Assembly (NCBI RefSeq): GCF_024707485.1 | Contig: NZ_CP102602.1 | Location: 248,001 to 312,000, forward strand | DNA from: Thermococcus thermotolerans | Lineage (GTDB): Archaea; Methanobacteriota_B; Thermococci; Thermococcales; Thermococcaceae | Direction of reading: 5' to 3' | DNA length: 64,000 nucleotides | In this document: positions 58 through 15,505 of the stretch, one piece after another | How positions within the stretch are numbered: the stretch's first letter is position 1 | Layout: each line of letters opens with the position of its first letter | Translations under genes and position numbers: made by a program | Notes under the pieces: generated by a model | The model's database searches: none | Seen by the model: the letters and a program-made list of their open reading frames with translations, nothing else | What the model was told of the DNA's origin: nothing

Positions 58-1760
58 ATGGATTGGGTCAAGATTCAAGAGAAGTTACGAGTCCTGTTCT
101 CTAGCGAAGATACGGTTGATAAGATAGTTCAGAACCCCTGTTTTCCAAATGAAAAATGCCTAAAGTACCGGATTGAAATAGACTGGCTTGCCCATCAATC
201 CCCTCACTAGTAAAGGCTTTATTCACTGATCCAGTCCGCTTTGAAGAAGCAGTCTTCTCAGCACTATCATCTAATGATTATCGAACCGACATTCCATTCG
301 AGTTTTACCTATATAACGGCCCCACTTACATTGGCCCTGAAGATATACTCCACCCTTCAGACCTGCGCAAGCTAAAAACACCAAATGTGGTGAGATTATT
401 CGCTAGAATCTCAGCCGTAAGATACTCAGGAGACGCTTTAATCTACGTCGCCGGATTTAAATGCTATGACTGTGGAAACGTAATGTTCAGGTACTACACT
501 CCCGGAAGTCCATTGCCGGAACCGAAACAATGCGATGCTTGTGGAGGCAGGCATAATATTAAGTTAGAACCATCCATATCCCAAATATTTGATTTCCACG
601 AGTTTGAAGTTACCATAAAAGATCCAATAACAGGTGAACAGGTTCAACTCCCCGTGATATTCATATTTGACGACGAGACTCCAAGCAAAAATTTGCCTCA
701 TCTTGGGGAGGATGTCCAGATTATTGGGATCCTGCGGTACAGTCATTACACCAAAGAGAAGGCAGTACCACTAATTGAAGCATTTAATGTGGAGAAATTA
801 TCTCCTAAACCCATTCGCCTTCAAGATGAAGTTAAAAAAAGTGAAGGAGAATGGAATACCCTCAGAAAATCTCTACAAGATGTCTCCTATGATGTGCTCG
901 CTAATTACCTGCTTCCTGGTAAGATCCCAACTGAGGAGAAATTACTCCTTCTTGGATTGATGCTAGCACCTTTTAAAGAGGAATATGGACTGAGTGAGTC
1001 CCCAAGTGCATTGTTCGTAAGATGTGGAGAAGTCCCCCATGCATCTCGCTTGTTCCAGTCTGCATGGAACTACGAAAAGCTGGCCCCTTGGCTTGTGGGA
1101 TACTACAATGCACTCGTTAGAGATGGGCCATTGTTATTAACCAAGGGTAAAGAATTCTCCCCAATTTTCGGGGACAACAAGCCCACTTTAAGAGCTGAGG
1201 AGATGCTTCTTTACAAGTGGGGAACTTTGTTGATTGACCATGGGGAGACCCTTTCCAAGAGGGAATTAAGCAGAATTGCACATTGGATTAGTGAGGGAGA
1301 GATTTATGAAGAACTTGGGAGATGGGTAAGATATCGGATTTCAGGTGGGACAAGGGTTGCGATGAGTATTAAGTTGAAGAATAGTGTTAAAGATCCAAGA
1401 AAAGCTTTGAACCGGGTCTTTGGTTATCCTGATCACGCGAAGTTCTGGTTTGTTTATTTCGAGAATAATGATCCTCTAAGAGAAGAATATAATATTCATC
1501 TCCCAATCCTTCCAGATCAATATGAGATTATGTACTTTGCCGCTTTACATTCGTTGGAGGTAGATGTGGATAGAGAGCGTTTCAGAGAGTTCATGAGTTG
1601 GTTTGTGGATAATCGTGAGAGTGCTACTCAATGGGGTGGTTTTAGATTGATGAATGGACTGTATCAGTTGGCTAAAGGCCTTGCAGCGTTAAAGTTCAAG
1701 AGAGTTGCCGATGAAGAAGTATTTGAAGTTCTAAGACGTATTAGTATGCACTTAGTTTGA
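58..1760 (+). pseudogene. MCM-like replicative helicase homologue, frameshifted, with degenerate ATPase motifs
   Basis: Reading from ATG 58 gives about 50 residues and then a stop at 208-210. The adjacent frame is open from about 177 to 1760, with its first usual start codon only at GTG 387. Adding one C to the C-run at 200-203 would join the frames into a protein of about 567 residues (inference). The joined product resembles archaeal MCM along its whole length. It has an N-terminal domain ending near the frameshift and a zinc ribbon with two CxxC pairs (FKCYDCG and QCDACGG, about 470-545). An OB-fold region and an AAA+-like region reaching a C-terminal lid follow. The ATPase is not intact: the Walker A position reads GEVPHAS (about 1026-1046) and Walker B reads IDHGET (about 1233-1250), against the family GDPGxxKS and IDEFDK. 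It is either a decaying gene or an inactive paralogue. The N-terminal break argues for pseudogene unless it is a sequencing error. The first 57 bases hold its promoter. Confidence 0.7.
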
Positions 1761-10251: not shown

Positions 10252-10400
10252 CCTCCTCCCCGCCTTGGTTGAGGGTTCCAACGAGTTAACCTCTCGCCAT
10301 TGGCAGGGAGGTTTGAAGGGTCTCCATTAGGAACCCTTTCAAGGGTTCCCTGAACCCCTCTGGCCGGACCTCCGGCCAATTACCCCTACCTGCCGTTAAA
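10252..10400 (-). ncRNA. Candidate omega RNA (reRNA) at the tnpB 3' end
   Basis: TnpB nucleases use a guide RNA transcribed from the 3' part of tnpB through the right end of the element. The last 115 bases of tnpB and the GC-rich right end occupy that position here. The location is inferred from the family; no structure was computed. Confidence 0.4.
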
Positions 10401-11593
10401 CCCGACAGGCTCGAGGTTATGGTTTTTACCACCTTCTTCAAAATGTTGAAAGCACCAACAAGGTCGGCGTTAAAGATAAGCCCCGTTGCGGGACACTTAA
10501 ATAACCCGCGAACAAAACGAGCCCCTTCATGGGACTTCCCGCAAACAGGGCAAGTCTTAGAAGTGAAAGCCTCACCAACAACCAAAACCTGAATACCATA
10601 CTCCTCCGCAACTTCTTTAAGACGCTTAATAACTGTATTGAACCGCCACACGTGAGAGAGGAGGAAATTCTGCTTTTTACCCTTCTCAGAATTCCTCGCT
10701 ATGCATTTGGGATAACCGACAATAATCTCAGAAACTCCAAACTCGTAGAGTTTCCTAACCGTTTGTCTAACGGCGGTGTTGATGTAATGTTTGGCTTGGA
10801 GTTTCGCTTTCTCATGCATTCTCCTGAGTTTCCTACTTGTTTTAGCCCCACTCTTGTTGAGTTTTGACTGGTAATCAGCAATCTTCCTCCTCCAGTAAAA
10901 GTCAATACTCTTTAACGGTCTCCCATTCACGAGGAAGCTTTCGCCATTCTCAACATAAACGGCCATCAAGTTGTTTACACCCAAGTCAATTCCCGCGGAA
11001 AGGCTCCCCTTTGGAGTTCTTGAGAGTTTAACCCACTCGTCTTTTTCGAGTTTCTCACTGACTGTAAGGCTCATGTGAGCGTACCATTTCTGCCTTACGG
11101 AGTCGTAAGTGATTTCTAAGCGCCCTTGCTTGCCTTTCAATTGTATTCTGCCTTTAAATTGGATTTCAAAGCGTCTGAACTTGCCGAGACCTTTAAGGAT
11201 TAGTTTGTTTCCTTCAATCTTGTACTGGTCGTTTATGAGAACGATTAAGGGTTTTCTCTTCCCGTCTTCTTTGAGGTAGTTTGGTGGTTTTGGTTTGAGC
11301 CAAGAGGGAAGTTCACCATTCCTCTTCTTTCGAAGGAGTGAGAAGAATGAACGCCAAGCTTCCGCGTTTTTGCGACATATTTGCTGAACTGTTGCTGAAC
11401 CGATTTCTTTTTTAAACTCTTCATAAACGGTTTTTTCAGTTAAATTGAAGTCCACGATTTGCCCTTGGAAGTATTGCTGTCGTCTGAGATAGTTTGCTCT
11501 GTTCCAGACTTTTGCTCCAATGTCGGCTAACTGGAAGAGTGTTTTTTCTTGCTCTTTCGAGGGCTGGAGTTTTACCCTTACTGTTCGCTTCAT
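10286..11593 (-). CDS. tnpB: TnpB RNA-guided endonuclease
   Basis: This 435-residue TnpB has an N-terminal HTH-like region (residues 1-90), a wedge-like middle domain and a RuvC fold. The catalytic acids are recognisable as Asp203 (GIDLGVNN), Glu341 (VVGEAFTSKT) and Asp377 (NADLVGAFNIL). The C-terminal zinc knuckle has CPVC (348-351) and one further Cys at 367, but the fourth position reads KCPATG instead of CxxC. TnpB cuts DNA guided by RNA derived from its own element end and helps the element persist. Mobility would need a TnpA in trans; none is in the window. Confidence 0.93.
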   Translation of the reverse strand: MKRTVRVKLQPSKEQEKTLFQLADIGAKVWNRANYLRRQQYFQGQIVDFNLTEKTVYEEFKKEIGSATVQQICRKNAEAWRSFFSLLRKKRNGELPSWLKPKPPNYLKEDGKRKPLIVLINDQYKIEGNKLILKGLGKFRRFEIQFKGRIQLKGKQGRLEITYDSVRQKWYAHMSLTVSEKLEKDEWVKLSRTPKGSLSAGIDLGVNNLMAVYVENGESFLVNGRPLKSIDFYWRRKIADYQSKLNKSGAKTSRKLRRMHEKAKLQAKHYINTAVRQTVRKLYEFGVSEIIVGYPKCIARNSEKGKKQNFLLSHVWRFNTVIKRLKEVAEEYGIQVLVVGEAFTSKTCPVCGKSHEGARFVRGLFKCPATGLIFNADLVGAFNILKKVVKTITSSLSGLTAGRGNWPEVRPEGFREPLKGFLMETLQTSLPMARG

Positions 11594-14527: not shown

Positions 14528-15505
14528 TCACGGCGTTAATGCCCATCTAGCGCTCTTCACGAGGCTTAAGATCGCAACAATGCTTGCAAAAGCCCAGAGA
14601 ACCATGACAATTGAGACCCCAAGTGCGGGCAGTACGAACGTTTTTATTGATGTGGATGCAGTTGCGGAGATTACGAAGACTCCCGCAAGTTTAGTGAGCT
14701 TTCTAAGCTCGGGCCTGCATTCTGTGATTTCGACATCTTCATGCTCTTGGGACTTCTTCAGGGCACGGTACAGAAGGAAAAGAGTGAGGGCGTAGAGTGC
14801 CCATATTGGAACCTGGGCAGAGAAACCGGGGAGTGCTTCTCTCCTGAGCATGGAGCCGAAGATTATGTAGTACGCAACGAGCGCCAGGATCAGGGGCTTG
14901 AGCTCCCTCCTGTTGGGCAGGAGCTCCAGCATGTCATGGTTTCTGCCGTTAAAACGCTTCAGCCAGAGATATATCATGAGAATTAGAAACGCCGAGGAGG
15001 AGAACGTCGATAGAAATGAGTGGAGGGGAGACGGAGCGTTCGAGGACTCGACTATGCCCAGAAACATGGCGGTGAGATATGGGTGTTTGAGAACGAAACC
15101 CGGGAGCACCCTTCTCCTGGAGGTCAGGAGCTCCGCGATGCCGAGGGGAACCATGAAGGACATGAAGGGATGCCAGAAGAGCACTATGACGAGGACTTCG
15201 AGGACACCGATCCCCCCTACTTTGAATATTGAACCCCATTCTGGATTCCATATGACCTTAGTTATGTATGCCTCGTAGAGGCCGAAGAGAATGCCGGCTA
15301 GATAAAGGGTCTCAAACCGAGGCTTCCCGAAGCGATAAACGATTCCGGCGAGAACCAGCGTGTGAAGGCCGTACAGGGGGAGGAGGGAGATTATCCCCCA
15401 AGGTGTGAAATACGGGTAAAGGTACGATGCCACGGTTACCTCCGCGAAGAAGACGGAGAGCGAAGCCAGCAGGAACCAGAAAAAGTATCTGTAATCCAGC
15501 CGCAT
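14528..15505 (-). CDS. Polytopic membrane protein, paralogue of the gene at 11690-12703
   Basis: A 325-residue protein with about nine hydrophobic segments. It shares with its paralogue the FAEV, EAY..K..WNP.WG and LFWHPFMSF signatures, indicating a common family that I do not recognise. Charged loops are short and no extramembrane domain is visible. It lies upstream of the small ABM-like and DUF998 genes on the same strand, with a gap of 56 bases. Confidence 0.65.
   Translation of the reverse strand: MRLDYRYFFWFLLASLSVFFAEVTVASYLYPYFTPWGIISLLPLYGLHTLVLAGIVYRFGKPRFETLYLAGILFGLYEAYITKVIWNPEWGSIFKVGGIGVLEVLVIVLFWHPFMSFMVPLGIAELLTSRRRVLPGFVLKHPYLTAMFLGIVESSNAPSPLHSFLSTFSSSAFLILMIYLWLKRFNGRNHDMLELLPNRRELKPLILALVAYYIIFGSMLRREALPGFSAQVPIWALYALTLFLLYRALKKSQEHEDVEITECRPELRKLTKLAGVFVISATASTSIKTFVLPALGVSIVMVLWAFASIVAILSLVKSARWALTP

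Follow-up and report, generated by a model that had tools for sequence, protein, structure and literature searches.

A gene at the start of the analysed window, a stretch of 64,000 bases (bases 248001–312000) of a single-contig Thermococcus genome of 2.07 Mb, is, judged by its sequence, an MCM homologue with a dead motor. We consider it fairly probable that the gene is the relic of a motor-less MCM of a mobile element, which would have been dropped into vapC after an earlier period of constraint and is now broken, and whose ancestral product would have acted as a non-catalytic partner. The gene and its upstream signals are as follows.

58–1760, + strand: MCM-like gene in two frames, joined product of about 567 codons
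58–210, + strand: frame-1 segment from ATG 58, start of the helical A-subdomain, with TAG 208–210 as its end
200–203, + strand: CCCC run at the apparent frameshift
177–1760, + strand: frame-0 open frame of 527 codons, with the rest of the A-subdomain, the zinc ribbon, the OB fold, the decayed AAA+ region and the lid
387–1760, + strand: ORF of 457 aa from GTG 387
7–24, + strand: aaaaaactttttttaata, 5′ of the gene, read from the sequence, which we take by the archaeal consensus to be a BRE/TATA-like promoter element
47–54, + strand: Shine-Dalgarno-like AGGTGGGT ahead of ATG 58, read from the sequence

The MCM family membership is carried by the N-terminal tier. The zinc-ribbon/OB part matched T. 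kodakarensis MCM3 (8x7t) with a phmmer E-value of 2.3e-10, further MCM N-terminal structures at 1e-6 and PHROG 10371 ('DNA helicase') at 8e-9, and an HMM of Thermococcales MCMs gave 47 bits for the same part; the phmmer and HMM matches bear out the family assignment made in an earlier note on this DNA. Both the zinc ribbon and the OB fold are present, with four of four zinc cysteines retained. Pfam detected no MCM domain in the protein, which shares about 20% identity with any MCM. The zinc ribbon and the motor positions read as follows.

462–542, + strand: intact zinc ribbon, CxxC...CxxC, with Cys87, 90, 110 and 113 (numbered from base 204) in invariant columns
1026–1052, + strand: degenerate Walker A position, CGEVPHASR for GDPGVAKSQ, lysine lost
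1227–1244, + strand: degenerate Walker B position, LLIDHG (LLIDHGE for ACIDEFD), D345 retained and E346 changed to H
1440–1442, + strand: arginine-finger position, Lys for Arg (AKF for SRF)
1644–1646, + strand: sensor-2 Arg481, retained

In addition, sensor 1 reads KDP in place of ANP, with loss of the asparagine. The Walker A, Walker B, sensor 1 and arginine-finger motifs of an active helicase are all changed in the alignment, in agreement with the previously claimed loss of the ATPase motifs. The C-terminal winged helix is absent, as the frame stops right after the lid; the earlier note had made no mention of this loss.

The coordinates reported before, namely a frame-1 segment from ATG 58 to TAG 208–210 and a 457-aa ORF from GTG 387, were both correct. 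The promoter-like and Shine-Dalgarno-like sequences upstream of ATG 58 appear intact on reading of the sequence. The same kind of reading revealed no ribosome-binding site upstream of GTG 387, and internal initiation at this codon was dropped as a candidate for want of a visible site. The frame-1 segment ends in KYRIEIDWLAHQS, frame 0 goes on with SLVKALFTDPVRFEEAV, and the counterpart in a cellular MCM is LAVDWTHLNSFDPELAEELLENPEESIAAAE. The frame-1 segment brings MCM similarity, with RIEIDW.. ahead of SLVKALFTDPV. The first 98 residues of the joined protein scored 25.3 against an MCM N-terminal profile, a value that was attained in 2 of 200 trials when the frame-1 part alone was shuffled; when all 98 residues were shuffled, the maximum score was 26.6. 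A frameshift at CCCC 200–203 is likely, with mutation and sequencing error both compatible with these data. The frameshift that the earlier note had placed at this run is therefore supported by the MCM similarity of the frame-1 segment and falls short of proof. Barring a sequencing error, the reading frame is interrupted in the manner of a pseudogene.

The gene lies in a foreign segment at a vapBC locus. The GC content drops from about 0.55 in the neighbourhood to 0.41–0.43 over the gene, and the insert takes the place of vapC after codon 47 and reaches mtnA; immediately ahead of the break, 20 of 20 residues of vapC are identical. At the same site, flanked by a small conserved gene and mtnA, four related genomes carry an intact vapBC.

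1–1942, no strand: window part of a low-GC insert of about 2.1 kb, left junction at about -149 (position 14851 of locus L006), right junction at about 1930–1942
1757–1771, − strand: right arm of a possible 15-bp terminal inverted repeat, 87% match, left arm at L006 14855–14869

The decayed vapBC itself (L006 14560–14851, window about -440 to -149) has a frameshift in each gene, with vapC cut by the insert; since vapB and vapC are each frameshifted, the site is decaying. In DNA, the relatives are 79–87% identical in the vapBC remnant, and the insertion is most simply regarded as lineage-specific and younger than the split from the vapBC-intact relatives. One lesion in the 1.7 kb of the MCM gene versus two in about 0.33 kb of vapBC leaves room for constraint after the insertion, the counts being too few to decide. 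The inverted repeat is suggestive only. Its left arm falls beyond the edge of the window, shortly after the vapC break, and the repeat ends eleven bases past the stop codon of the gene. Its motif has no other mismatch-free copy in the genome, and for lack of such copies we do not claim an active IS family. Examined for features of a mobile element, the insert is foreign and low in GC and has the possible inverted repeat; the MCM-like gene is its only gene, and no integrase accompanies it. Elsewhere in the window (10286–11593, − strand), a 435-aa ORF resembles by eye an IS200/IS605-type TnpB.

Protein searches of genome_contigs, viral_contigs, plasmids, phages and 94 Thermococcaceae genomes found no orthologue of the MCM-like gene, and the DNA of the insert had no match in 61 genomes of the genus except itself and none in plasmids or phages. 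The host genome retains an intact MCM of its own, which bears an intein and has every motif, so that a potential partner exists. A second PF00493 match in this genome (1395754–1396113) was ruled out as an MCM by its EGIPGVAKTT/LADEINRA Walker motifs, which belong to another AAA+ group; it has no MCM N-terminal domain. In T. kodakarensis, there are three MCMs, one of which is essential (PMC3307487).

Because the frameshift is likely and a decayed vapBC lies alongside, the present copy is most likely a pseudogene. It is conceivable, though we think it unlikely, that the gene is instead a functional, expressed inactive paralogue, domesticated or selfish, which acts on the host MCM today and whose frameshift is an assembly error. 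Such a gene would explain the long stop-free frame, the promoter- and Shine-Dalgarno-like sequences in place and the smaller number of lesions than in the neighbouring vapBC, and unbroken dead MCMs do occur elsewhere, but against it stand the lack of an orthologue in all 94 genomes of the family, the position as sole gene of an insert in a decaying toxin–antitoxin locus, and the broken continuity of the A-subdomain.

The reading frame also bears on when the motor was lost. No stop occurs in 518 codons, whereas a dinucleotide model predicts 33 and never gave fewer than 17 over 500 runs; the remaining reading frames contain 24–50 stops. As the gene is without orthologues, a neutral simulation was used in place of dN/dS. 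For an MCM gene mutated free of selection, 13% of the simulated runs were still without a stop at 90% amino-acid identity, and none was at 80% identity or less. The 518 stop-free codons and the stops that arise in every run at such identities bear out the previously suggested divergence under coding constraint. The motor was lost during a long period under coding constraint, since neutral drift so far would have yielded stop codons, and this loss must predate the insertion, since the insertion is young, relatives at 79–87% DNA identity retaining an intact vapBC. The simulation largely refutes the view that the gene is a plain pseudogene of a catalytically active element MCM whose motifs decayed after loss of function. 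We judge this view improbable: about 20% identity without any stop is incompatible with neutrality, the youth of the insertion places the motif loss earlier and unbroken dead MCMs exist, even though the frameshift, the missing winged helix and the decaying surroundings would fit it and nearly all element MCMs appear active.

Homology of the C-terminal half to the AAA+ region and lid was assessed by profile comparison, in which residues 206–518 were set against an alignment of MCM homologues built without the query. The profile score was 32.9, whereas 300 shuffles averaged 15.7 (s.d. 2.6) and reached 24.4 at most; the alignment was collinear, starting at the Walker B strand and finishing where the lid ends. 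Exceeding 300 of 300 shuffles and running collinearly through the lid, this comparison supports the AAA+-like region and lid described earlier. With a smaller profile, the score of 26.1 was above all 200 shuffles, but it was exceeded by a number of unrelated proteins encoded in the window, most of them P-loop proteins. Because of these proteins, the profile evidence for AAA+/lid homology is good yet short of overwhelming. In BLAST, residues 49 to 365, a stretch that includes both Walker positions, matched an element MCM (L106). Searched by themselves, the C-terminal 287 aa (residues 232–518) had no homologues below E 0.01, and their weak matches (E 0.017 and above) were taken as noise. Single-sequence AlphaFold2 gave no usable model (pLDDT 34.6); with nine aligned sequences, the OB/zinc part reached a pLDDT of about 60–84 and most of the rest stayed below 50. 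Foldseek with this alignment-guided model returned MCMs as top PDB matches at TM-scores of 0.28 or less, and the viral library contributed little. Since the guiding alignment was made of MCMs and the TM-scores are low, the Foldseek matches do not count as independent evidence. The AAA+ core and lid have a shuffle-beating profile score and a collinear alignment, together with no Pfam match and low AlphaFold2 confidence. That the protein joins a DNA-binding zinc-ribbon/OB part to a C-terminal domain unrelated to AAA+, as detection of the N-terminal part only by Pfam and BLAST, the C-terminal 287 aa without homologues below E 0.01 and a pLDDT below 50 for most of that half might suggest, is very improbable, because the C-terminal half alone beats 300 of 300 shuffles with a collinear alignment from the Walker B strand to the lid and the BLAST match at residues 49 to 365 spans both Walker positions.

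Dead MCMs with unbroken frames occur elsewhere. A motif survey took in MCM homologues from seven plasmid or virus records and from more than 20 Thermococcales loci, either element-borne or extra. The Walker A lysine, the Walker B DE and the arginine finger were present in all readable cases except two, L113 and L140. L113 (1906–3945, + strand, on the MAG contig WGAO01000121.1) encodes an unbroken MCM homologue of 679 aa, in which all four ATPase motifs are lost: it has FEDPTIGSQ, LVEGFEKI, ASSRLK and SYFGL at Walker A, Walker B, sensor 1 and the arginine finger, respectively. The gene is adjoined by one for a 591-aa HTH protein. The contig is labelled Thermotogaceae; it is probably mis-binned and from Thermococcales. 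Upstream of the dead MCM (558–1773, − strand), an MFS transporter extends over two overlapping ORFs and is probably frameshifted. L140 (1318–2991, + strand, the same as L169 12318–13991, + strand; G001:C18) encodes an unbroken ATPase-dead MCM homologue of 557 aa that starts at the OB fold and reads V-DEQQKASQ, IIEELDKL, AVINPR and SVFDL at the four catalytic positions. Its neighbours on an integrated element are a Cdc6-like AAA+ gene on one side and an SSV-type integrase on the other; the element also carries a PD-(D/E)XK nuclease, and in the Cdc6-like protein the Cdc6 lid was detected and a winged helix was not found. No orthologue of L140 was present in 115 genomes of the class. Both proteins have Pfam matches to MCM, MCM_OB and MCM_lid. 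They resemble the window gene in that zinc/OB, AAA+ and lid are present and the catalytic residues are lost, and differ from it in being less diverged (33–41% to cellular MCM), unbroken and in retaining the region past the lid. L113 and L140 cluster at 97/97 support, a grouping to be read with caution because both are long branches. A single clade of these two and the window gene was neither rejected (p-AU 0.28) nor established; the tree placement of the window gene itself was set aside as unusable, its branch being 8.5 changes per site long. With two unbroken examples, the inactive MCM paralogue raised as an option in the earlier note is a real class, and L113 and L140 suggest that motor-less MCMs have a job on mobile elements.

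On the preferred reading of a motor-less element MCM, the following course of events can be proposed. In another genome or element, a lineage would have lost ATP binding and hydrolysis together with the winged helix and, under selection, retained the zinc/OB N-tier. A short foreign segment of one gene would then have replaced most of vapC in an ancestor of the strain, and the present copy would have become frameshifted, so that the whole protein is most likely no longer made. The zinc/OB N-tier of MCM rings binds DNA and joins neighbouring subunits. The working protein was most probably a non-catalytic partner of an active MCM, whose N-tier may have bound DNA or the host MCM, and the helicase would have been either brought to the origin of the element or held. 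Between a recruiter of the host MCM and a stalling poison, the Cdc6-like gene beside L140 leans slightly towards recruitment. More broadly, Thermococcales elements might carry a class of motor-less MCMs that steer or block the host ring, with or without a Cdc6-like protein of the element, the window gene being a far-diverged member that is perhaps still made; we put this forward as a tentative and rather unlikely extension. Archaeal MCMs are homohexamers, and a natural subunit without ATPase therefore offers a direct test of the number of working sites that a ring requires, and of how a motor-less element could use the motor of its host. With L113 and L140, what would have been a lone curious pseudogene becomes a small class, open to expression and to mixing with host MCM in vitro.

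Several known systems invite comparison. MCMs on viruses and plasmids of Thermococcales are well described, for example T. kodakarensis TK0096 and TK1361, and pTN3, in the available portions of PMC12934983 and PMC6972569; those portions make no mention of ATPase-dead MCMs on Thermococcales elements, and the survey of Krupovic et al. 2010 falls outside this comparison. Such element MCMs are a probable kind of source for the window gene, being MCM homologues that mobile elements within the same order carry. They differ from it in that, L113 and L140 excepted, they keep Walker A, Walker B, sensor 1 and the arginine finger, and many carry an N-terminal extension that the window gene does not have. 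In haloarchaea, C-terminally truncated MCMs of 312–315 aa cannot be helicases (PMC3972481); these end after the N-terminal domain, whereas the window gene retains a decayed AAA+ region and lid. Stand-alone ORFs of the MCM N-terminal domain without AAA+ were also observed in L095 (2885–3820, − strand, G075, 312 codons) and L096 (2438–3244, − strand, G083, 269 codons), and are the Thermococcaceae counterparts of the haloarchaeal short type. The MCM2 of Methanopyrus kandleri is reported to be catalytically inactive, with a non-conserved Walker A and natural internal deletions (PMC2933578, PMC3972481, PMC4619765). No direct sequence match was found between this protein and that of the window gene, 3f8t being absent among the phmmer matches of the latter. 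MkMCM2 (PDB 3F8T) and the window gene are alike in being archaeal MCM homologues in which Walker A is lost, and unlike in that the latter sits on a foreign insert, has a frameshift and stops once the lid is complete. Inactive archaeal MCMs are thus already known as a kind through MkMCM2, and the gene described here is a variant of that kind.
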